Positions 48,551-63,422 of a stretch of DNA of 64,000 bases are shown here, one piece after another. Position numbers and translations under genes: made by a program. Location: contig JBBFKY010000009.1 in the NCBI GenBank assembly GCA_037481875.1, forward strand, positions 87,364 through 151,363, written 5' to 3'. The notes under the pieces are model-generated. The model made no database searches, was not told the DNA's origin, and saw nothing but the letters and a program-made list of their open reading frames with translations. Numbering within the stretch: position 1 is the stretch's first letter; each line of letters begins with the position of its first letter. Origin of the DNA: Desulfosoma sp. Its GTDB lineage: Bacteria; Desulfobacterota; Syntrophobacteria; Syntrophobacterales; DSM-9756.

Positions 48551-49188
48551 AGGCTGCCTTGGGGTGAAGACTTTCAGGAATCGGCGCCGCCTTAAGGGGC
48601 ATAAGCCTTCATGCAAACACAGCTTTGATCTTTTAGCGAGGCGAAGCCATGCCACGAGAAAGCCAAATATTGTCCGTACAGCCCAGATGTTGTCTTCATT
48701 GTTGATGCCCCTAAAGTGAAGAAAAAGATGAAAAAGGTTCCAGGCCCATAATCGAAATACTTTACCGACTTCGAACTTAACTTATAAAGCTAGACATATG
48801 CTTCCAGAAACAAGGGCAAAGCGGTTGATTCTATAGCCAATCAAAACTCAGGGGGTTCAGCTCTGCCGGCGTTCATTTCTTTCGTGTTGAGCGGCGCTCC
48901 TGCAAGAAGCTCATTGTGCGGGTCGCAAAACAATCCTTCTCACTGAAGTGTACCGTCGTCACGTAGCTTTGAATAGCGGCGGTCGTTTTAATGGCTTGCC
49001 TGAATACCGAGGCAAGGTATTATGCTATTTTTCCAGATTTACCCAATGGGAAAGAAAGGAAGCGGAGCAACCACTCATGTTACGTGGCGTACTGCAAAAG
49101 ATCAGTATAAATGGATACTTCTTAGTGGAGTCTTTGCTTTCAGGACAAGGTGAAAACAATCATTAAAGTTGTTACAAAAGGTGGAGCT
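48551..49188. other. gene-free stretch at left edge of accessory region
   Basis: About 640 bases with only short frames lacking initiation signals or recognisable content. The composition is less ordered than in neighbouring genes and no repeat of the GGGCGGAC family occurs. It marks the change from conserved genes to the accessory region. Confidence 0.5.
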
Positions 49189-49593: not shown

Positions 49594-50210
49594 AGAAAGT
49601 CTCGGCGGGCGATTCCGCGGCTTTCCCATCGATCATGAGAGTGAGCGGCTGTCGCTTCATTTCGCCTAGCTTTTGCGTACGCAATGTTTCGAAACAGGTC
49701 AACCTCGAAGCCGTGAACGGGAACGCATATGCCAGACGCTGCTGCTCGACTCGCTCAAATCCGAAAATGTTCGTACCGTGCGAGTAGAACCCATAAGAGC
49801 CTGAGCTTACAAACACCTTGAGGTGACAGAGACCTTTAAGACATGCGGCTTCAGCGAGACCGACATTGCCCGATCTTGAGCCTTGTACCCTATTTGAAGG
49901 GTGAGGCCGGGCTAAAGGCCCTTATGCAGAGTGGTTTGTATGGTGGTTTTCCCCACTGATTTAGCCTGCCTTGGCTAGCGAGGGCTGAACTGATCAACGC
50001 AGAGAGGCCATAGCGCACCTGGGCTTCAGGTTTTCGTGAAAGCGAAGTAAAACCTGATGCAAGGCGCTTAGGAGTGTGTAGCGAAAAAAGTTTAGGCAAA
50101 GGGTTAAAAAACAAGTGTTTTCAGTCGAGTAGTGAACTGGCTCCCTGTTGGGCATTATACTGGAATTGGATTCTTGAGGGGCAGGGAAAAGAGCAGTTGG
50201 GGAGGATGGC
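49594..50210. other. gene-poor spacer before the DISARM-like operon
   Basis: About 615 bases. A minus-strand frame (49535-49816) has no identifiable content and no start signal. The sequence near 49890-50110 is also without clear genes. The operon promoter should lie here, and the first gene has a good GGGGAGG site at about 50200. Confidence 0.4.
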
Positions 50211-53200
50211 ATGAGTATCTTCGAGTACGCCTCATCTGTAGTATCTGACTACCAGAACTATGTCCGCAGCTTTTTTAATATAGCTGATGAGCGGATAAGC
50301 CAAATAGTAGAGCAGGAATTGTTTGCTCTTGAAACCCTATGGCCAGAGGCTCTTGTCCAGCTGAACCCTCCCTATGAGCTAACAACATCGGTGGGTGAGC
50401 TTTGCCGGCAGAGCAAGCTACACCCGGCCTGTGCCGACATTTTCTGCGACGATAATGGCCGTCCCTTCATTCTCTACTACCACCAAGAAGAGGCTATTGA
50501 ATGCGCACTCCGGGGCGAGTCATACGTGGTTACTAGTGGCACCGGTTCCGGAAAGTCTCTGACCTACTTCATTCCAATCTTCGACGCGGTGCTGCGTGCT
50601 AATCCCGCCGAAGCGAGGGTGCGAGCGATAATTGTTTACCCTATGAATGCTCTTGTGAACTCTCAGCACAACGCGTTGCTGGAATTGAGAGATCGCTATG
50701 AGCGCCGGACCGGTCAGCCCCTCCCTGTTCGGTTTGCCAAGTACACAGGCCAAGAGAAGGGACCGGAGCGGCGCGAGATCCTGGATTGTCCGCCCCATAT
50801 CCTCCTCACCAACTATATGATGCTTGAGCTCATCCTTGTTCGGCCCCAGGAGCGCCACTTTGTCCACCGGGCAGTGGCCGGTATCGATTTTTTGGTCTTC
50901 GATGAGCTGCATACTTACCGTGGCCGCCAAGGCGCCGATGTAGCTCTCCTCATTCGGCGGCTGCGCCAACGCTGCGGCAACCCGAACCTGATCTACATCG
51001 GTACCAGTGCCACGATGGTTGGTGGTGAAGAAATAGGTAGCGGCGAGCGCCGCCAGGCCGTGGCCGACTTTGCCAGCAAGATCTTTGGCGTTACCGTTTT
51101 GCCAGGGAATGTTATCCAAGAGAGATTCAGGCCCCTTACTACGCTGGTCGGGGTAGACGCGCAGCCCTTGCGGGGAGCCGTTCAAGCCCCCTTGCCTGAG
51201 ACACTAGAAGAATTGAGAAAGCACCCCTTGAGCTGGTGGATAGAGCGGAATCTAGGCTTTCGTATTGCGCCGGACGGCACCAGCGAGCGTTGCCCGCCCG
51301 TCACCCTCTCTGAGGCGGCTCGCCGACTAGCAGAAGACACTGGTTTGGAGGAAGTCCGCTGCCGCGAGGCCCTTCGTGCCGCCCTTTTGCGCGGCACCAC
51401 TCTGAAGGTTGACGGCGACAATCCTCTTTTTGCCTTGAAACTGCACCAATTTGTTGGTCAGGGCCAGGCAGTCTACGCCACTTTGGAGCCACCCACAGTG
51501 CGCTATCTCACTTTGGAGGGCCAGTACTATGCCCCCGAAGGTGAAGAAAACAGGGTTCTTTTTCCATTAGAGTTTTGTCGCCAGTGCGGCCAAGCCTATT
51601 ACAACGTCTGGCTTGCTAAAGAGTCTAGCCTTTTCCTCCCGCGGGAGCCGGAGGGAGAATTCTTTGCCCCGGAAACCGAAATTATGCCCGGCTACTTAGT
51701 ATTAGCCGACGAGGTAGGGGACTGGACGGCCGATGCCGAACATTTGCCCCCCGAATGGCTGGATGACCGCGGGCGGGTGAAAAGCCACTACCGCCAGGGA
51801 GTTCCGCGCGAGGTATGGGTTAAGCCCGACGGTGCGCTAGCTTATGAAGAGTCCTCTGGGGCGATCCGCGCCTTTTTCCAGCCTAAGCCCTTCCGACTTT
51901 GCCTCGCCTGCGGCGAAACGTACTCTGGCCGTGATCGAGAGTTCCGGAAGTTAGGCCGGCTTTCTAGTGAAGGCCGGAGCAGCGCCACCACCGTGTTGAG
52001 CGTGGCCGCTTTGTTGCATGCTGCCCAGCACGGCATAAGGGAGGAACACCGCAAAGTCTTAAGTTTTACCGACAACCGCCAGGACGCTTCCCTTCAGGCA
52101 GGCCACTTTAACGACTTTGTACGCTACTCCCTGCTGCGGGCGGCCCTTTACAGGGCACTTGAGACCAAGGGCCAATTGGATCACGTAAATGTGGCCGATG
52201 AAGTGCTGGCTATCTTAGACCTTAGTCTGGCGGACGTGAGTAATTGCCCAGTGCACCCGCAAAGCCCAGTAGGGCGCAAACGCTGGGAGGCATTTCGGAC
52301 CCTCATTGAGTACCGTCTTTACGAGGACCTGCAGCGAGCATGGCGAGTCGTGCAGCCAAATCTTGAACAGTGCGGACTTCTGGTCATTGATTATCTGGGT
52401 CTAAAGGAATTATGCGAAGACGAAACTCGTTGGCACACTTGTCCGGTTCTAGCCCCACATACGGCAGAAAAGCGCTACCAAGTGCTTCATACCTTCCTTA
52501 ATTACATTCGCTACCACCTAGCCATCAACGCGCGCGTGCTCTCCGAACGCGAACAGCAGCAACTTAGGCGCCAGCTCGGTCAGAGTGAGGAAGAAAAATG
52601 GGTGCATGAAAAATGGTGGGAGCCCGACGAATGGCTCCGGCCAGCGGCGCGCTTTATCCTTTCCGGCACGACGGACTTGCGCTTGCAAAAACGGAGCTTA
52701 AGCGGGAAGACTCGACTCGGCCGGTACTTACGCCGAGATTTGAGGCTTTCGCCTGAGGCATACAATGAATTCGTGCTACAAATGGTGGATATCCTGTGTT
52801 CTCAGGGATTGTTGGTAAGACGCCAGGAGGGGGGCGAAGATTACATTCAGATCGAAGTCGGCTGCCTTCTTTGGCGACTGGGCGATGGTACGCCGCCTCC
52901 TCCCGACCCCGTGTATAGCCGCCGGGTGGAAAGCCCTGCCTACATTGAGGTCCAACGGAAGGTAAACGCCTTTTTCCGCGACTTTTACCGCATAGCCGCG
53001 GCTCACTTAAAAGGGATAGAAGGGCGGGAGCATACTGCCCAGATTTCCAACGACGTTCGCCAGGAGCGAGAGCAGCGCTTCCGGGAAGGGGATCTCAAAT
53101 GCCTTTTCTGTTCGCCCACAATGGAGCTGGGTATCGATATCGCTGACCTGCGAGTAGTGCACCTGCGTAACGTACCTCCTACTCCGGCTAACTACGCCCA

Positions 53201-55316
53201 GCGCAGCGGTCGGGCGGGCCGGCGTGGCGACCCCTCTCTGGTGCTAACCTACTGTTCCGCGCGCAGTGGCCACGACCAATACTTCTTTCGACGCCGTGGG
53301 GCAATGGTGGCTGGCGCGGTCAAAAGCCCTAAGCTCGACTTGGGCAATGAAGACCTGGTGCGCGCCCACGTCTACGCCGTTTGGCTGGCCAAGACAGGCC
53401 TTCGTCTAGGCAGTGCCATTGACGACGTCATTGAGCTGAACCCATGGCCCGAGCTGCCCCTCAAGGAGGAAGTGCGAGCCCAAATAGAACTCAGCGAGCT
53501 TCGCCTCGCCGAATGCCTTGCTGAAGCAAGGGAAATCTTGAACGCTTGCGGAGAGGATTTGGCTGAAAGCGGTTGGTATACGGACCAGTGGTTAGAAGAA
53601 CTTCTCCGAACTGCGCCCAAAGCTTTTGATGCTGCCTTCGACCGTTGGCGCGAGCTTTATCGCGCGGCCATAAGTCAGCTTGAAAGCGCCCAAAAGGATT
53701 TACTGCGTTCTCGCCGCCGTGAAGCGCAGGAGGAAGCCCAGCGGCTCCAGGAGGAGGCTATCCGTCAGCGCAACCTTCTAATAAATCAAGCCAAAAATGA
53801 GGAGTCCGACTTCTACCCATACCGATACCTGGCCAGCGAGGGCTTTCTACCTGGATACAACTTTCCACGTCTGCCTTTGCGCGCCTTCATACCACGCAAC
53901 GAAGGAGAATTCATCAGCCGGCCTCGGTTTTTGGCTCTTCGGGAATTCGGACCCGACAATATCATTTACCACAATGGGGCCAAGTACGAAGTGAAGCGCT
54001 TCATTGCTCCGCCCGGCGGACTGGCTCAGCGGCAGCGTACCGTCAAGCTTTGTCGTATGTGTGGCTACTATCATGAGGATGCCACGGCTGATCTCTGCAG
54101 CCACTGTGGTGTGCGGTTTGACGCCGAAACGAGCGAGGTGGCAGTACTGTTAGAGATGCCAAACGTGCGCGCCAGGCGGCGGGAGCGGATCACTTGCGAG
54201 GAAGAAGAGCGCATCCGGCGCGGTTATCGCATAACCACACATTTTCGGTTCGCTCTCTTGCCCGGCGGCCGGGAGCGCCGGGTGGAGGCTACAGTGAATG
54301 ACGAGACCAATAATCCGCTGCTGCGTCTAGTGTACGGGTCTTCGGCTACACTCTACCGAGTCAACCACGGCTGGCGCCATCGCCCCGAAACCGAGCACTT
54401 TGTCGTCGACTTTAACAGTGGGGAGATATGGCGACCGCTTTCCGAAGGCGAGGAACTTGAAGACTGGGCGGTGGAACTCCCTAGTACCTCTAAGGCCCGG
54501 GAGGTAGTCCGCCTGATGGTATGGAACACCGAGAATATCCTTTTAGTTTACCCGCTCGATCCCGCTTGGCGGGGAAACACGGACTTCTTGGCCACCCTTC
54601 AGTATGCTCTCCAACGAGGCATAGAAACCGTCTTTGAGGTGGAAGAAAGCGAGTTGGACTCGGAACGCATAGGCGAAGACACATACCGCGGCATCCTCTA
54701 CTGGGAAGCGGCCGAAGGGGGCGTCGGGGTTCTTCGGCAACTGGTCCAGGATCCCAGAGCATTAGCGGCCGTAGCCCGTGCCGCTCTGAAGCGCTGCCAC
54801 TTCAGCGTGGACGAAAACAATGGCGACTCGTGCGCCCGCGCCTGCTATCACTGCCTACTGTCGTACTACAACCAGATAGACCACCAGCTTCTGGATCGCC
54901 GGCTCATCCGGGAGGCCCTGGAGCGTCTGAGCCGCTCTTACACCGAATGGCATAGGGCCGAGCGCAACCTCGATGATCATTACCGCTGGCTGCGCTCTCT
55001 TACGGACTTGCGCTCAGAGCTAGAGCGACGTTTCATTGACCTACTCTATCACACGGGCCACCGTCTGCCTGACGAGGCGCAAAAGGCTGTGGCCAACTTA
55101 CCCTGCATTCCGGACTTCTTCTACGAACCCAATATCTGCGTCTTCTGCGACGGCGCAGTACACGACGAATCCGCCCAGAGGCAGCGGGATGCCGTAAGCC
55201 GGGCCGAACTTCGGGATCTTGGCTACCGGGTGGTGGTCATTCGCTACGACCGGGACCTCGAGGAACAGGTCCAAGCCTACCCGGATATCTTCGGCGAAGG
55301 GAGGAGGAGTGGATGA
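50211..55316 (+). CDS. YprA/DrmA-like DEAD-box helicase with DUF1998-like region and C-terminal nuclease-like domain
   Basis: A 1701-aa protein; ATG 50211 follows GGAGG. Superfamily 2 helicase motifs: YHQEEAIECAL (Q-like), TSGTGSGKSLTYF (Walker A, ~105), YPMNALVNSQ (Ia), FDELHTYRG (DExH-type DELH, ~230), GTSATM (III) and QRSGRAGRRG (VI, ~1000). Cysteine pairs CRQCGQAYYN, CLACGETY and CRMCGYY...CSHCG suggest zinc sites. The DUF1998/MZB signature CARACYHCLLSYYNQIDHQLL lies near residue 1540. The last 100 residues (IPDFFYEPNICVFCDGAVHD...RAELRDLGYRVVVIRYD) resemble Vsr/DUF559 PD-(D/E)xK nucleases. In DISARM the helicase (DrmA) and DUF1998 protein (DrmB) are separate; here they are one chain. It probably acts as a DNA translocase of an antiphage system. 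Confidence 0.85.
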   Translation: MSIFEYASSVVSDYQNYVRSFFNIADERISQIVEQELFALETLWPEALVQLNPPYELTTSVGELCRQSKLHPACADIFCDDNGRPFILYYHQEEAIECALRGESYVVTSGTGSGKSLTYFIPIFDAVLRANPAEARVRAIIVYPMNALVNSQHNALLELRDRYERRTGQPLPVRFAKYTGQEKGPERREILDCPPHILLTNYMMLELILVRPQERHFVHRAVAGIDFLVFDELHTYRGRQGADVALLIRRLRQRCGNPNLIYIGTSATMVGGEEIGSGERRQAVADFASKIFGVTVLPGNVIQERFRPLTTLVGVDAQPLRGAVQAPLPETLEELRKHPLSWWIERNLGFRIAPDGTSERCPPVTLSEAARRLAEDTGLEEVRCREALRAALLRGTTLKVDGDNPLFALKLHQFVGQGQAVYATLEPPTVRYLTLEGQYYAPEGEENRVLFPLEFCRQCGQAYYNVWLAKESSLFLPREPEGEFFAPETEIMPGYLVLADEVGDWTADAEHLPPEWLDDRGRVKSHYRQGVPREVWVKPDGALAYEESSGAIRAFFQPKPFRLCLACGETYSGRDREFRKLGRLSSEGRSSATTVLSVAALLHAAQHGIREEHRKVLSFTDNRQDASLQAGHFNDFVRYSLLRAALYRALETKGQLDHVNVADEVLAILDLSLADVSNCPVHPQSPVGRKRWEAFRTLIEYRLYEDLQRAWRVVQPNLEQCGLLVIDYLGLKELCEDETRWHTCPVLAPHTAEKRYQVLHTFLNYIRYHLAINARVLSEREQQQLRRQLGQSEEEKWVHEKWWEPDEWLRPAARFILSGTTDLRLQKRSLSGKTRLGRYLRRDLRLSPEAYNEFVLQMVDILCSQGLLVRRQEGGEDYIQIEVGCLLWRLGDGTPPPPDPVYSRRVESPAYIEVQRKVNAFFRDFYRIAAAHLKGIEGREHTAQISNDVRQEREQRFREGDLKCLFCSPTMELGIDIADLRVVHLRNVPPTPANYAQRSGRAGRRGDPSLVLTYCSARSGHDQYFFRRRGAMVAGAVKSPKLDLGNEDLVRAHVYAVWLAKTGLRLGSAIDDVIELNPWPELPLKEEVRAQIELSELRLAECLAEAREILNACGEDLAESGWYTDQWLEELLRTAPKAFDAAFDRWRELYRAAISQLESAQKDLLRSRRREAQEEAQRLQEEAIRQRNLLINQAKNEESDFYPYRYLASEGFLPGYNFPRLPLRAFIPRNEGEFISRPRFLALREFGPDNIIYHNGAKYEVKRFIAPPGGLAQRQRTVKLCRMCGYYHEDATADLCSHCGVRFDAETSEVAVLLEMPNVRARRRERITCEEEERIRRGYRITTHFRFALLPGGRERRVEATVNDETNNPLLRLVYGSSATLYRVNHGWRHRPETEHFVVDFNSGEIWRPLSEGEELEDWAVELPSTSKAREVVRLMVWNTENILLVYPLDPAWRGNTDFLATLQYALQRGIETVFEVEESELDSERIGEDTYRGILYWEAAEGGVGVLRQLVQDPRALAAVARAALKRCHFSVDENNGDSCARACYHCLLSYYNQIDHQLLDRRLIREALERLSRSYTEWHRAERNLDDHYRWLRSLTDLRSELERRFIDLLYHTGHRLPDEAQKAVANLPCIPDFFYEPNICVFCDGAVHDESAQRQRDAVSRAELRDLGYRVVVIRYDRDLEEQVQAYPDIFGEGRRSG

Positions 55317-58165
55317 GCGTGCAAATGGCTGTAGGAAGTATTGTACGCTGCCGCGGCCGCGAATGGGTGGTGTTACCTTCCAGGGAGCCGGAAGTGATAT
55401 ACTTGCGACCGGTGGCCGGTGATGAAGATGAAGCCTGCGGTATCTACCACCCTTTAGTGGAAGATGGGGTTGAGCAGCTTGAACCCGCAACCTTCCCCCT
55501 GCCCACACCTGAGGATGCGGGGGACGCGGTAGCCACCAGGCTCCTGTGGGATGCCGCCCGGCTTGCTTTACGCGACGGCGCCGGACCCCTGCGTTCCTTG
55601 GCCAGAATTTCGGTGCGGCCTCGAGCCTATCAGTTCGTGCCCTTACTAATGGCTTTGAGGCTTGACCCGGTGAGGATCCTAATTGCCGACGACGTAGGCG
55701 TCGGCAAAACCATAGAGGCCCTTCTTATCGCCCGAGAACTTCTTGACCGCGGGGAGGTCCGCCGTCTCTGCGTCCTCTGCCCGCCTTACCTCTGTGACCA
55801 ATGGCAAATGGAACTAGCGGAAAAATTTCATCTTGAAGCAGTGGTGGTTCGCTCCGGTACGGTAAGTCGTCTGGAGCGCTCTCTGCCCCCGGGCGAGCCC
55901 AGCATCTTTAAGTATTATCCTCATCTGGTGGTTAGCATTGATTACGTCAAATCGGACCGGCACCGCCCAGAGTTCCTAACCCATTGCCCCGAATTGGTCA
56001 TTGTGGACGAAGCTCATGGTGCTGCCTAACCGGGCACGGCTTCCAAAGGCCAGCAGCAGCGGCACGAGCTGTTACGACGACTGGCGGCCAATGAAAAACT
56101 CCATTTAGTGCTTCTCACTGCCACCCCTCACAGCGGCATCGAGGCGTCCTTTGTCTCACTCTTGGCCCTCCTAAAGCCTTCTTTTGCCAGCCTTAACTTT
56201 CGGCGCCTTACCGAAGAGGAGCGGAAAGAGGTGGCCTACCATTTCGTCCAGCGGCGCCGGCCCGACATCGTTAAGTGGCTGGACGAAGTGACCTCCTTCC
56301 CTGAACGAGAGAACGTCGAGGAAACGTACGACCTCTCCCCGGCATACCGAAAGCTTTTTGACCAAGTCTTTCATTTCAGCCGCGAGCTAGTGCGCACCGG
56401 CGAGACCCTCTCTGGCTGGCGCCGTCGCATCCGCTACTGGGCTGCCCTGTCCATCTTGCGCTGCGTGATGTCGAGCCCCGCGGCAGCCGCTGCTGCCTTA
56501 AGCAAAAAGGTCGCAGTCGAGGCTGAAATCCAGGAAGAGACGGACGCAGCCTATGCTCCTTTCATCTACGACCCGACAGACGAGGAGCCTTTGGACGTGG
56601 AACCTTCGCACGTGGTGGAGCAGGGCGAGGCTGAGCTGCCCGAAAGCGGCCGCCGCAAGCTGAGGCAGTTCGCCCGCCTAGCCGAAGAACTTTTGGCCAG
56701 CGGCGCGGATACCAAGATTGTTCGTTGTGCCGAGGTCGTGGAAAAGCTCTTGGGCCTCGGCTTTCATCCCATTATCTGGTGCCGTTTTATTGAAACGGCC
56801 AAATACGTCGCTTCTGAACTTGCCCGTCGGCTCGTCCCCGCCTTCCCAAACCTGGTGGTGGAGGCGGTCACCGGCAACCTGCCCGAGGAAGATCGGACCC
56901 TCCGCGTGGAGGAACTGGCGCGTAAATCGCCCCGGGTATTGGTGGCCACCGACTGTCTGAGCGAGGGCATCAACCTGCAGGAGCACTTTACCGCCGTTCT
57001 GCATTATGATCTCCCTTGGAACCCGAACCGCCTAGAGCAACGGGAAGGCCGTGTGGACCGTTTCGGGCAACAGGCGCCGAAGGTCCGAGCCGTGCTCTTC
57101 TACGGCCGCGACAATCCCATAGACGGCGCTGTACTCGAGGTGCTTCTGCGCAAAGCAGAAGAAATTAGGAAGAGCCTTGGCGTGGCAGTGCCAGTGCCGG
57201 CAGACAGCGAATCGGTTTTGGAAGCGGTCTTCAAAGCCGTAATGACCCGGGTAGAGGGGGCGACCTCAGGGTGGCGGCAGCTGCGGCTGTTTTCTGACAA
57301 GACGGTTCTCGATTTCCACCGTCGTTGGCACGAGGCCGCCGGTCGGGAAAAGGAAAGTCGGAGCCGGTTTGCCCAAGGAGCCATAAAACCCGACGAGGTC
57401 GAGCGGGAGCTTGCCGAGACCGACCACGTTTTGGGTGATCCGGAGGCAGTGCGGCGATTTGTCTTAAATGCCTGCCAGCGTTTGGGCCTAAAAGTGGAGG
57501 CAGCGAGCGACGGCACCTATCTACTCTCAGTGCCCTCGGGGCTCAGGTTACCTTCTCTGGTGGATGAGGCTCTGCCAGCCAGACCCTGGCGGGTGTCCTT
57601 CACCTCCCCACCGCCCAAAGGCGCAGCATGGCTGGGAAGAAACCACGCTTTTGTGGGCGCCATGGCTCAGTGGATCCTAGAAAGCGCCTTGGCGGGTGCT
57701 AGCCAGGCGGGGGCCCGCTGCGGGGTGGTGCGCACAACTGAGGTGGAGCGCCGCACCGTACTCCTATTACTCCGCCTGCGTTACCTTTTGGAGCAGCCTG
57801 ACCGCCCGCTGCTTCTAGCCGAGGAGGTAGCCGTGTTCGCCTTCCAAGGTTATCCGCCCGGACGCCTGGTCTTCTTGTCCGAAGAGGAAGCGCACCACCT
57901 TTTGCTACGTGCTCGTCCTGACGTGCTCGTGCCTCAGGGCGAGCGGCGGGAGGTGTTAAGTGAGGTTCTGGGCTGGTGGGAGGTACTACTGCCCTACCTC
58001 AAAGAACGGGCTAACGCACGGGCGCGGCGGGTATTTGATGCCCATCGCAGGGTGCGGGCAGCAGCGGGACTGGCACGCCGAGGCTTGGCAGTTCAACCGC
58101 AGTTTCCTCCGGACTTGTTGGGGGTTCTGGTCCTACTTCCCATTGCGCAAGGAGTGATGAGGTAA
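55313..58165 (+). pseudogene. drmD: DrmD-like SNF2 helicase interrupted by in-frame TAA
   Basis: A single 951-codon frame is open except for TAA at 56027-56029. The start (ATG 55313) overlaps the helicase stop (ATGA). The N-terminal piece has Walker A DDVGVGKTIEALLIARELL, CPPYLCDQWQMEL and motif II VDEAH; the stop comes three residues after motif II. The second piece resumes in the same frame with LLTATPHSG (motif III) and ends with VATDCLSEGINLQ and NPNRLEQREGRVDRFGQ (motifs V and VI), then DNPIDGAVLEVLLRKAEEIRK, typical of DrmD. A single base change or sequencing error could account for it. As written, the helicase cores would be made as two chains only if translation reinitiates (for example at ATG 56108). 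DrmD belongs to class 1 DISARM. Confidence 0.82.
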
Positions 58166-58166
58166 A

Positions 58167-61100
58167 GTGCGCTTTCCATGCTTAAGAATTGAAGGCGGGT
58201 TGATTGCCGCCGATCTTCTCGACCACATTTACGAGGGCAGCGCCCCAGGTCAGACTGCTGCTGACTTCGGCCTGAGGGCTCGCTTGGAAAACGAGATTTC
58301 CGGCGCTTGGCAGGTGGCGCTTGAGTACTGGGCAGCTTTTCAGCAGCGCCTAGAGCGCCTTCCGGAAACTGACCCGGCCACCACTATCACCCGAGACCAA
58401 TGGATCATTCCGCTCTTGAGCCTTTTGGACTATGAACCGGTCTACGTTCCACGGGCGGCCCAGATAGAGGGCAAGACCTATGCCGTCTCCCACCGTGCCG
58501 ATGCGAGTGAGAACGCGCCACCTGTGCACGTGGTAGGCTGCCGCCTAGTTTTAGACCGGCGCCCAGAGAGCGGTCGGCCTCGGCTAGCGCCCCATTCCCT
58601 CTTGCAAGAGTACCTAAACCGTAGCGAGCACCTTTGGGGCGTGGTCACCAACGGCTTTCTTCTGCGGCTTTTACGCCAGACCACCCGCCTTACCCGGCCC
58701 ACTTACATTGAGTTCGACCTCCGGGAGATGATGGGTGGCAAAAACTTTGCCGATTTCTCCCTGTTTTACAGGTTAGCCCACCGCTCCCGCCTGCCACGAG
58801 ACGACGCGGCGGCATGCTGGCTTGAGCGCTACTACCTCGAGACCATCAAACAGGGCGGCCGAGTGCGCGATCGCCTGCGAGAGAGCGTGAAGAATGCTAT
58901 TACCATCTTGGGAACGGCCTTTCTTGAGCACCCCGCCAACAATGACCTGAGGGAAAAGGTCCGCACTGGCCAGTTAGACGCGGTAGACTACTACCAAGAA
59001 CTTCTGCGCCTCATTTATCGCATGCTTTTCCTCTTGGTTGCCGAAGAGCGTGAGCTCCTCACCGCTAACCCAGTGTACCGGCGGCACTACAGCATCAGCC
59101 GGCTTCGGAACCTTTGCGAAAACCGCCGGGTCTGGAACCATCATACCGACCTGTGGGAGGCTGCTAAGATCGCTTTTCGCCTTTTAAGTGACGAAAACCA
59201 CGGGGTTAAGCTAGGTTTGCCTCCACTCAACGGACCGCTCTTCGATCCACAAGGCACCAAGAACATCAACGAATTGGCCCTTACCAACCAAGCCTTCCTG
59301 AAGGCCTTCTGGTATCTCTCCATGTACCAGGAAAACGAGCGGGCTCCGTGGCGACGGGTCAACTACGCCGCTCTGGATGTGGAGGAGCTTGGTAGTGTTT
59401 ACGAAAGCCTTCTGGAATACCACCCGGATCTGAAAGCGGCTAGTTCTGAGATGGCTTTTAACCTACTGGTCGGGATGGAGCGCAAATCCACAGGCTCGTA
59501 CTACACCCCGCGCACTCTGGTGGATGAGCTAGTGGCCAGCGCGCTGGTTCCGGTCCTCCACGATCGGTTGGCGGGCAAGAACACTCAGGAAGAAAGGGAG
59601 CCGACCATCCTTTCCATTAAAGTCTGCGACCCCGCCTGCGGATCGGGCCATTTTCTCTTGGCCGCGGCTAGGCGCTTGGGCTTGGAACTTGCCCGTGTGC
59701 GCAGTGAGGTTGACGAACCGTCACCAGAGGCAGTCCGGGAGGCAATCCGTGAGGTCATCGCTCATTGTCTTTACGGCGTGGACAAGAATCCAATGGCCGT
59801 GGAACTCTGCAAGGTGGCCTTATGGATTGAAGGGCACCTACCAGGAAAACCGCTCACTTTCCTCGACCACCGCATCCGCTGCGGCGACTCTCTGTTGGGG
59901 GTCTTCGACCTATCCGTGCTGGGAAAGGGCATCCCGGACGAGGCCTTCGCCCCTGTAGAGGGCGACGACAAGGCCGTGGCACGGTCCCTGGTCAGAAAAA
60001 ACAGGAAAGAGCGACTCGGCCAGACGAGGCGGCGTCTTCCCAAATTGGCCGATCTGGGGTGCTTCCTGGAAGAAACAGCACCGCTACTGGCCCTTCCAGA
60101 CAGCACCCTCGAGGTGGTTAGGGAGAAGACCAAAGCTTATCAGATCATGCGCAAAGAAGAGCCTCTACGTCGCCATCTCAGCGCCTGCCATCTCTGGACC
60201 GCCGCTTTCTTTACTAGGCTGAACAGAAACGTTGACCACGTCCCTCTCAGCGGAGACCTAGATGCTTTTCTCAACGGCCATGAGGACCGCCGGCTCACTG
60301 AAAAAGCCAGGAAACTGGCGGAAAAACACCGCTTCTTCCACTGGCCCCTGGAATTCCCCGAGGTTTCTAAGGATGGCGGTTTTGATGTGGTGCTCTGCAA
60401 CCCTCCCTGGGAGCGCATCAAGCTCCAAGAGGAGGAGTTTTTTGCTACCCGGGATACAGAGATTGCCAGAGCTCTCAATAAGGCAGAGCGACGGCGGCTG
60501 ATTCAAGCCCTTCCGAATAATCGCCCTGCTCTCTGGCAGGAATATCAAGAAGCCAAGCACGCTGCCGAAGCGCAAAGCAAATTCCTGCGGGGCAGCGGCC
60601 GCTTTCCGCTTACCGCCCGGGGTGACATCAACACTTACAGCATTTTTGCTGAGCTTTTTTCGCAGCTTCTTCGTCCGTGCGGCCGCGCCGGCGTGGTACT
60701 CCCCACGGGCATCGCCACCGATGACACCAACAAGCACTTCTTCGCCCACCTGGTGGAGACCGGGCGGCTGGTGAGCCTTTATGATTTCGAAAACCGTGAG
60801 AGAGTTTTTCCGGCAGTAGTTAGTCTTTACAAATTCTCCCTGCTTACCATTCGGGGCCGGACGGAAGAGAAGACTCCGCAGCGCTTTGCTTTCTTCCTCA
60901 CCCGCACCGAGCAATTGCGCGACGGTCGCCGCGTCTTTGAGATGAGCCCGGAAGACTTGGCCCTCTTTAACCCAAACACCGGCACCTGCCCTGTGTTTCG
61001 CACTCGCGAAGACGCTGAACTCACCAAGAAAATCTATCGGCGCGTGCCTGTGCTGGTAAACGAGAGGACAGGAGAGAACCCATGGGGCGTAAGGTTTATG

Positions 61101-62171
61101 ACAATGTTTCATATGGCCAACGACAGCCACCTTTTCCGAACCACGCAAGACCTAGAGGGCCAAGGATATGTGCTTATGCGCGGCCGAGACCTTGGCCGGC
61201 CCGACGGTCTCTACTACGTGCGTGGTGACGAGGTCTGGCTGCCTCTCTACGAGGCTAAGATGATCTGGCAGTTCGACCACCGCTTTGGCACTTACAAAGG
61301 GGTACCACCAAACACCACCAGCACCCAACTCCCCACACCGCAGGAGGAAGATTGCGCTGACCCACATCATTTTGTGCTTCCGAGGTATTGGGTGAGGGAC
61401 CAGATGGTGAAGGAGCGGCTCAAGCAGCGGAACCGCAACGGCGGGCAGATTCACTGGAAGTGGGACGGCGGGTGGCTGCTGGGGTTTAGGGACGTGGCTC
61501 GTGCCACTGATGTACGCACAGCCATCTTCACCATCCTGCCGCGGGTAGGGGTGGGGCACAAGCTGCCGTTAGTCCTGTACCCAGAGGATCTGAGCGTTCT
61601 TAGGGTGATGTGTTTTCTTAACAACATGAACTCTCTTGTGTGCGACTTTGCAGCACGTCAGAAAATAGGTGGGCCCTCCCTAAGCTACTTCATATTAAAA
61701 CAGCTCCCCGTCCTGCCACCCGATAGCTACACTGTAACTGACCTCTTCTTTACCATCCCCCGCGTCCTGGAGCTGATTTACACCGCCTGGGACCTAGAAA
61801 CGTTTGCGCGAGAGGTATGGCAAGAGAGCCAACGGGAGCTGCGACAAGATATTGCCCGCCGCTGGCAGGAGTGCTGCGGGTCGTCGCTACAGGTCCATCC
61901 GGAGGCCGAAACGATCCCGCCCTTCCGCTGGAATTCTGAGCGCCGTGCCGTCATTCGTGCCGAGCTCGATGCTTATTACGCAAGGCTCTATGGGCTGACC
62001 CGCGATGAGCTACGTTACATCCTCGACCCTAAGGACGTCTTTGGCCCCGACTTCCCCGGCGAGACATTTCGTGTGCTCAAAGAAAAAGAAGAGCGCCGGT
62101 ACGGCGAATACCGTACCCGCCGTCTGGTTCTGGAGGCATGGGAGAGATTGGAGAAAAGCGAAAGTCGTTAG
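58167..62171 (+). CDS. drmMI: Eco57I/DrmMI-like N6-adenine DNA methyltransferase
   Basis: A 1334-aa protein with a GTG start two bases after the helicase stop (GATGAGG upstream). The methylase core carries the gate SYYTPRTLVDELV, SAM motif I VCDPACGSGHFLLAAARRLG (~residue 490) and catalytic motif IV CNPPWERIK (~745). The N-terminal ~420 residues are the large helical region typical of Eco57I/PglX-type enzymes. The C-terminal ~450 residues, with the GVVLPTGIATDDTNKHFFAHL segment, probably contain the target-recognition domain. In DISARM class 1, DrmMI marks self DNA by N6-adenine methylation; here it likely plays the same part. No separate specificity subunit is present. Confidence 0.85.
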   Translation: MRFPCLRIEGGLIAADLLDHIYEGSAPGQTAADFGLRARLENEISGAWQVALEYWAAFQQRLERLPETDPATTITRDQWIIPLLSLLDYEPVYVPRAAQIEGKTYAVSHRADASENAPPVHVVGCRLVLDRRPESGRPRLAPHSLLQEYLNRSEHLWGVVTNGFLLRLLRQTTRLTRPTYIEFDLREMMGGKNFADFSLFYRLAHRSRLPRDDAAACWLERYYLETIKQGGRVRDRLRESVKNAITILGTAFLEHPANNDLREKVRTGQLDAVDYYQELLRLIYRMLFLLVAEERELLTANPVYRRHYSISRLRNLCENRRVWNHHTDLWEAAKIAFRLLSDENHGVKLGLPPLNGPLFDPQGTKNINELALTNQAFLKAFWYLSMYQENERAPWRRVNYAALDVEELGSVYESLLEYHPDLKAASSEMAFNLLVGMERKSTGSYYTPRTLVDELVASALVPVLHDRLAGKNTQEEREPTILSIKVCDPACGSGHFLLAAARRLGLELARVRSEVDEPSPEAVREAIREVIAHCLYGVDKNPMAVELCKVALWIEGHLPGKPLTFLDHRIRCGDSLLGVFDLSVLGKGIPDEAFAPVEGDDKAVARSLVRKNRKERLGQTRRRLPKLADLGCFLEETAPLLALPDSTLEVVREKTKAYQIMRKEEPLRRHLSACHLWTAAFFTRLNRNVDHVPLSGDLDAFLNGHEDRRLTEKARKLAEKHRFFHWPLEFPEVSKDGGFDVVLCNPPWERIKLQEEEFFATRDTEIARALNKAERRRLIQALPNNRPALWQEYQEAKHAAEAQSKFLRGSGRFPLTARGDINTYSIFAELFSQLLRPCGRAGVVLPTGIATDDTNKHFFAHLVETGRLVSLYDFENRERVFPAVVSLYKFSLLTIRGRTEEKTPQRFAFFLTRTEQLRDGRRVFEMSPEDLALFNPNTGTCPVFRTREDAELTKKIYRRVPVLVNERTGENPWGVRFMTMFHMANDSHLFRTTQDLEGQGYVLMRGRDLGRPDGLYYVRGDEVWLPLYEAKMIWQFDHRFGTYKGVPPNTTSTQLPTPQEEDCADPHHFVLPRYWVRDQMVKERLKQRNRNGGQIHWKWDGGWLLGFRDVARATDVRTAIFTILPRVGVGHKLPLVLYPEDLSVLRVMCFLNNMNSLVCDFAARQKIGGPSLSYFILKQLPVLPPDSYTVTDLFFTIPRVLELIYTAWDLETFAREVWQESQRELRQDIARRWQECCGSSLQVHPEAETIPPFRWNSERRAVIRAELDAYYARLYGLTRDELRYILDPKDVFGPDFPGETFRVLKEKEERRYGEYRTRRLVLEAWERLEKSESR

Positions 62172-62181
62172 GGCGTTTCTC

Positions 62182-63006
62182 ATGAGCGAAGAGGGAAAAT
62201 GCCTTAGGAAGGCTAGAGGTCGCCTTGCAGAGACCGAAAATAAGGAGGGTCAGGGAATATCTCGCCGGCTAATTAGATTAAAAGGCGACGATTTCGATCT
62301 TGAAAAGCTAGGGAGAGAGTTAAGTGGTAATTCGATCGTACGGGTTTTCCGGCACGATAAGCACCATTATTTGGAGGTACTCCACAAAGCCTTCGAGACC
62401 GCGAGGCAAATTTATGACTATGCGAAGGATGTCTTGGTACCTGCAATAAACGGTATCATGAGGGTTCGCTACCCCGGCTTTCGTAACGTGGAAGTCGACG
62501 CCATAGGCGAGGAGAAAGAAGACGGTAGGATAAACCATTGCTTTTTTGTCGAAACTTCGGGTGAACTTGGAGTGCGCTCCGAGCTGGTGGCTTCCGTCGT
62601 CACAGACAATGAAACGGTTGTTCATCATATCTTCGAATCAATAGCCGGCGTGGGTGAGCGATGGCTTGAAGTTTTGTTGAAAGAAGAAGGCTGTCTAAAC
62701 GCCTTTCGTCTTTATGCAGCCAGGCCTTATGATTGGGTGACTTTGTATAAGATTTTTGAAATTGTGGAATCAGACGGTGCACCGATTACCAACTGGGTGA
62801 GTAAAAATCAAGTGAAGCGATTCACCCGGACTGCCAACAGTCCAAAGGCTGTCGGTTTAGAAAAGGCGAGGCATGGAAAGGAACGTCCATCATCCTCCGA
62901 ATCATCTTTTAAGCCGATGTCCATTCAAGAGGCCACGCGTTTAATTGGGATCATCTTGGAGCGTTGGCTTGAACAAAAAGTTTCTCAATGCGGCTCTATA
63001 GCATGA
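62182..63006 (+). CDS. hypothetical protein with HEPN-like RHG motif, last gene of DISARM-like operon
   Basis: A 274-aa protein from ATG 62182, ten bases after the methyltransferase stop. No named domain is certain. The middle is helical (HYLEVLHKAFETARQIYDYAKDV). The C-terminal part carries DWVTLYKIFEIVESD, then NQVKRFTRTANSPKAVG and ARHGKE, and a final MSIQEATRLIGIILERWLEQK helix. The R-x-H-type charged pattern in a four-helix setting recalls HEPN ribonuclease-like proteins of defence loci, and similar RHG-containing hypotheticals occur in accessory DNA. Function is inferred; it could be an effector or a regulator of the operon. Confidence 0.55.
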   Translation: MSEEGKCLRKARGRLAETENKEGQGISRRLIRLKGDDFDLEKLGRELSGNSIVRVFRHDKHHYLEVLHKAFETARQIYDYAKDVLVPAINGIMRVRYPGFRNVEVDAIGEEKEDGRINHCFFVETSGELGVRSELVASVVTDNETVVHHIFESIAGVGERWLEVLLKEEGCLNAFRLYAARPYDWVTLYKIFEIVESDGAPITNWVSKNQVKRFTRTANSPKAVGLEKARHGKERPSSSESSFKPMSIQEATRLIGIILERWLEQKVSQCGSIA

Positions 63007-63277: not shown

Positions 63278-63422
63278 CTTGCAGCGACCCCTTTTTGCCC
63301 TACCCAGGGGAGAAATGAGTGATTGAATCATTAAGTCATTAAGTCATTCAATCATTGAGTCATTCAGTCATTGAGTCATTGAGTCGTCAACTTGCAGCGA
63401 CTTCCTTTTGCCTTAACCTGGG
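63278..63422. repeat. imperfect ~32-bp direct repeat flanking the tandem array
   Basis: CTTGCAGCGACCCCTTTTTG... at 63278-63310 recurs as CTTGCAGCGACTTCCTTTTG... at 63391-63422, and both copies end in a CC(C/T)TA(A)CC(C/T)(A/G)GG-like block. The right copy overlaps the end of the transposase remnant, so the left copy may be a second element end or a duplication. Confidence 0.6.
63322..63385. repeat. 8-bp tandem repeat (ATTGAGTC-like) x 8
   Basis: Eight contiguous octamers: ATTGAATC, ATTAAGTC twice, ATTCAATC, ATTGAGTC, ATTCAGTC, ATTGAGTC twice. Variation is confined to positions 4 and 6. There are no spacers, so it is a simple tandem array, not CRISPR. Confidence 0.9.

Follow-up and report, generated by a model that had tools for sequence, protein, structure and literature searches.

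The locus described here occupies positions 50211 to 63006 on the plus strand of the window, by which we mean the whole 64,000-nucleotide stretch of Desulfosoma sp. DNA that was analysed; the window ends where the contig ends, and the context downstream of the locus is absent there. Five plus-strand open reading frames (50211-55316, 55313-56029, 56108-58165, 58167-62171, and 62005-63006) make up four genes. Gene A (50211-55316, 1701 residues) encodes a YprA-family SF2 helicase, homologous to the YprA protein of ARMADA Type I, and gene B (55313-58165) a BrxHII/RapA/DrmD-like SNF2 helicase. Gene C (58167-62171, 1334 residues) encodes a PglX/DrmMI-like adenine-specific DNA methyltransferase of the Eco57I type. 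Gene D (62182-63006), a 274-residue orphan, lies outside the conserved cassette; its ATG at position 62182 is a more likely start than position 62005. Genes A and B overlap by 4 nt (ATGA), genes B and C are separated by 1 nt, and gene D follows gene C after 10 nt, counted from its ATG. The original prediction of four adjacent genes that overlap or nearly touch is borne out for gene content, strand, and junctions, and genes A and C and the downstream frame ending at 63006 are all present in the ORF list. It overlooked that the SNF2 gene, correctly placed in its family, is not one open frame but two, with an in-frame TAA (56027-56029) between them. Downstream of gene D, before the contig ends, lie about nine tandem copies of the 8-mer TGAGTCAT (63316-63385); searches of the region for tandem repeats and RNA families returned nothing that bears on the cassette.

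Gene A carries a Walker A motif (Gly-110 to Lys-115), a DELH box (residues 231-234), CxxC pairs at 456/459, 564/567, and 1281/1284/1296/1299, and the MZB/DUF1998 cysteines 1545/1548. Three Pfam domains score above their cut-offs (DEAD, residues 91-269; Helicase_C, 933-1006; MZB/DUF1998, 1463-1549), and the protein is thus a YprA-type helicase with a DUF1998 region, as predicted. As in ARMADA Type I, helicase core and DUF1998/MZB region reside in a single protein. The closest relatives among the matches listed come from a Clostridiales metagenome-assembled genome (89% identity) and from Desulfofundulus thermobenzoicus (71%). In a quick tree, which contains some long branches and was built without the published Type I reference WP_108720193.1, gene A falls into a clade of 62 rows (SH-aLRT 99), apart from the Type II protein ArmC of Escherichia coli ATCC 8739, from DruE III, and from the MrfA-like protein of the host.

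The C-terminal segment of gene A (54936-55313, residues 1576-1701) had been predicted to be nuclease-like. The corresponding region matches DUF559 in 33 of 46 family members and can be classed as a DUF559/MTES_1575-like domain. Its putative catalytic residues Glu-1605, Asp-1635, Asp-1647, and His-1651 are kept in 81, 83, 82, and 80, respectively, of the 88 loci listed (the window's own copy and the 87 related loci described below), three of which do not cover the region. A profile of the domain retrieves, weakly, the PDB entries 3hrl and 3r3p (I-Bth0305I). An AlphaFold2 model of the domain (pLDDT 85.4) superimposes with VIA-align on 3r3p (Z 9.6, 2.8 Å, 90 residues) and on Vsr (PDB ID 1cw0, Z 8.5). 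A Foldseek search of the PDB with this model gave no hit below an E value of 0.001 and ranked I-Bth0305I first, as expected. E. coli ArmC contains the same CRPDY...FLDGFAFH pattern. Residue conservation and the predicted fold confirm that gene A ends in a Vsr/EDxHD-type PD-(D/E)xK nuclease domain with conserved, presumed catalytic residues. Such a nuclease is a common ARMADA trait and not peculiar to this locus. In agreement with the earlier failure to see a PLD motif, a Pfam search scored no PLD domain in any of the cassette genes.

The assignment of gene C as an Eco57I-type methyltransferase is supported by both Pfam and PADLOC (DrmMI, 288 bits). Against the nearest sister, an 84%-identical cassette, genes A and B show 87-89% identity and gene C 77%. 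Within gene C, identity is as low as 36-50% over residues 851-900 and 1051-1200, and DNA similarity is lost at 61295-61685 (approximately residues 1043-1173). From this pattern it looks as if target-recognition segments of the methylase have diverged or been exchanged, with 61295-61685 the likely target-recognition region.

ARMADA systems were described in a preprint by Bell et al. in September 2025 (PMC12458937). In Type I, the first protein is a YprA helicase whose C terminus is a Vsr nuclease predicted to be active; a BrxHII/RapA-like helicase and then a PglX-like methylase follow, and an alternative order B-C-A is found in cyanobacteria (PMC12458937). A BrxA-like insertion after RecA1 defines the Type I lineage. 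Because the A-B-C order and the protein architecture match the published description, we consider it very probable that the locus is a horizontally acquired ARMADA Type I anti-phage cassette, followed by one orphan gene and recently hit by a nonsense mutation in the gene for the SNF2 helicase. It differs from the published Type I in this stop codon and in the extra gene behind the methylase. The defence-operon reading of the original prediction holds, an anti-phage role being inferred from the gene set. The three-gene core, however, is not a new arrangement but already catalogued as ARMADA Type I; what is newly seen is this copy, which is apparently broken.

To collect related loci, a profile built from six sequences was searched against 84,980 species genomes, from which at least 80 loci were kept; seven more came from relatives of the host (n = 87). 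Among these 87 listed loci, the gene order is A-B-C in 33, B-C-A in 18 (cyanobacteria included), and C-A-B in one, while 18 contain two of the three genes and 17 gene A alone, many of the latter on short contigs. At least one partner gene thus accompanies the gene A helicase in 70 of the 87 loci, which come from many phyla. A plasmid hit from Azotobacter (H50) proved to be an unrelated, short helicase fragment and was rejected. On plasmid pMP1 of Deinococcus radiodurans R1 (L119:12001-24471), the cassette has its methylase annotated in two pieces and is followed by an IS630 element. Two Cellulomonas loci (L087:12792-15053 and L098:21947-24208) encode an AAA_5 protein with an Mrr_N domain directly behind the methylase, consistent with the reported association of these cassettes with McrBC.

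The cassette was probably gained by horizontal transfer. Similarity to two genomes of the same genus ends at position 48557, behind a phosphorylase gene common to all; both genomes retain this flanking gene and lack the cassette. Similarity to the sister cassette is limited to positions 50191 to 62153, and therefore genes A, B, and C moved as a block. A same-genus genome from a sister species (G001, L120:5875-15953) contains a different YprA cassette, in which a 1613-residue DrmMI-like methylase frame lies upstream of a 1783-residue DruE-like helicase with an MTES_1575 nuclease at its C terminus, an order resembling ARMADA Type II. Another genome (G030, L121:977-13998) encodes a Druantia-like helicase of the YprA family that ends in a PLD domain, in a row with a DUF932 protein and a DUF4011/Hhe-like helicase.

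Gene D begins just behind gene C and reads in the same direction, as might be expected if it supplied this ARMADA copy with a functional fourth subunit or a regulator. On the Nostoc plasmid pNLP3, moreover, a gene D homologue has a type ISP methylase on one side and a PLD-SNF2 helicase on the other. Yet no D-like frame occurs in any of the 87 related loci listed, including 22 A-B-C loci with room for one downstream, and the frames behind gene C differ from locus to locus. The Desulfofundulus locus (L029) lacks gene D over 3.2 kb downstream of its gene C, whereas the absence of gene D from the sister cassette is uninformative, because that contig stops 172 bases past the end of similarity. Homologues are scarce, occurring in 5 of 395 genomes from this phylum and in 12 plasmid records, and two remote ones are located among housekeeping genes. 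A role as fourth component is thus unlikely, and gene D is most likely a passenger from a rare orphan family. Gene D carries an F-x2-TAN-x(5)-G-x(3-4)-RH motif, and its homologues share F-x2-TAN...RH. Gene D had been labelled HEPN-like, which we could not substantiate: it has no family match, HEPN included, in Pfam, PADLOC, NCBIfam, or PHROGs, and no significant match among PDB sequences. Neither single-sequence nor profile searches located relatives in viral contigs, and no phage homologues were found. A single-sequence fold model is too poor to judge (pLDDT 47.7). That some methylase-helicase defence operons recruit the F-x2-TAN...RH proteins, as an undescribed family of accessory sensors, regulators, or toxins, and that this lineage thereby has an ARMADA variant of four genes, is a speculative proposal to which we give little weight.

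Gene B matches the DpdE, DrmD, and BrxHII models. Its two frames (55313-56029 and 56108-58165) share one reading frame, and translation of 55313-58165 yields a single SNF2 protein, broken by the TAA directly after the sequence IVDEAHGAA that contains the DEAH box. The two closest relatives, like the other readable ones, have a sense codon at this position (B239), where the residue varies among the gene B alignments from the other loci and, among those listed, no second stop is seen; intact copies of gene B occur in relatives, and the Desulfofundulus cassette (L029) contains no internal stops. When we compared the window with its two closest relatives, the N/S ratio on the window branch was 0.18 for gene B after the stop, 0.125 before it, and 0.17 for gene A. 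Since purifying selection acted on nearly the whole of this branch, the stop is either recent or an assembly error. The same constraint, and the motifs retained in both halves, could also be read as gene B being made in two functional pieces corresponding to RecA1 and RecA2, with the second one starting at a GTG (56108) and the system still active. We regard this as improbable: none of the other alignments listed has a stop at this site, a two-piece protein would lose 26 codons just beyond the DEAH box, and constraint on both halves is expected equally if the stop is very recent. With gene B truncated, the recent nonsense mutation has probably switched off this cassette copy; if the stop is an assembly error, the copy is intact. 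The stop is a defect of the copy and not of its descent. Broken copies recur, as two other loci also carry stops, one with two in-frame TGA codons in gene A (L018) and one with a single stop in gene C (L097).

The locus had been interpreted as a DISARM variant in which a single protein replaces DrmA, DrmB, and DrmC. The underlying kinship is genuine: the two halves of gene B score 130 and 163 bits against DrmD (NF038317), and gene C scores against DrmMI as given above, the likeness to class 1 DISARM being confined to this helicase and methylase. The gene B scores fall well short of the 610 bits that NCBIfam sets for DrmD, however, and separate DrmA, DrmB, and PLD nuclease DrmC genes, typical of class 1 DISARM, are all missing. 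Gene A is not DrmA-like, scoring 44 bits against DrmA and 318 bits against DruE, its best PADLOC match. The 1701-residue protein is indeed a helicase-nuclease in one chain, as had been noted, but it represents the normal, published ARMADA Type I architecture rather than a substitute for DrmA, DrmB, and DrmC, which makes a fused or replaced class 1 DISARM very improbable. A Druantia-type system is hardly credible. DruE models are the top PADLOC matches of gene A, and DruE, likewise a helicase-nuclease (PMC13192584), is its nearest known helicase family there. The partners of gene A, however, are an SNF2 helicase and a methylase, the latter lacking in Druantia Type III; neither DruH nor any other Druantia partner is found at the locus; and annotated relatives, D. 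radiodurans pMP1 among them, have no DruH homologue beside gene A. In the tree, the DruE III proteins of E. coli and Klebsiella branch elsewhere, and the nuclease is Vsr-type where that of Druantia III is PLD (PMC12458937).

A further comparison for an ARMADA Type I cassette is with Type II, represented by ArmABCD of E. coli ATCC 8739. Its SNF2 helicase is homologous to gene B (27% identity over 604 residues), and so are its methylase and YprA-nuclease to genes C and A, the ArmC tail showing the same D...DGxxxH pattern. In contrast to our locus, Type II is ordered ArmA-ArmB-ArmC-ArmD, its 2113-residue ArmC contains further C-terminal sequence, and it includes a GajB-like helicase, ArmD, which is absent here. 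Type II protects E. coli non-abortively, without growth arrest, and requires the helicase motifs and the NPPW motif of the methylase, whereas Type I was not assayed against phage in that study (PMC12458937). The related helicase-nuclease DruE loads on 3' single-stranded DNA and cuts long DNA (PMC13192584).

By analogy with these systems, gene A would translocate and cut in Type I, and sensing or licensing would fall to genes B and C. In an intact system, the gene C methylase may mark host DNA at a target adenine, and the gene B SNF2 translocase together with the methylase may survey incoming DNA. The gene A helicase would load on single-stranded or unmodified, replicating invader DNA, translocate, and feed it to its own C-terminal nuclease, which would nick or cut the DNA without killing the cell. 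Substrate choice, division of labor, and anti-phage activity of the cassette are inferred here, and a simple model in which unmodified DNA is cut may be wrong, because the methylase is required for Type II defence.

Named in 2025, the system is not yet covered by older defence libraries; PADLOC 2.0, for example, splits ARMADA Type I between DruE, DpdE/DrmD, and DrmMI labels. The Desulfosoma copy illustrates that a seemingly complete locus can harbor a nonsense mutation. Our analysis contributes further Type I loci, drawn from many phyla, in which the predicted nuclease site is uniformly conserved, and this conserved site would provide a direct, testable prediction for the family.
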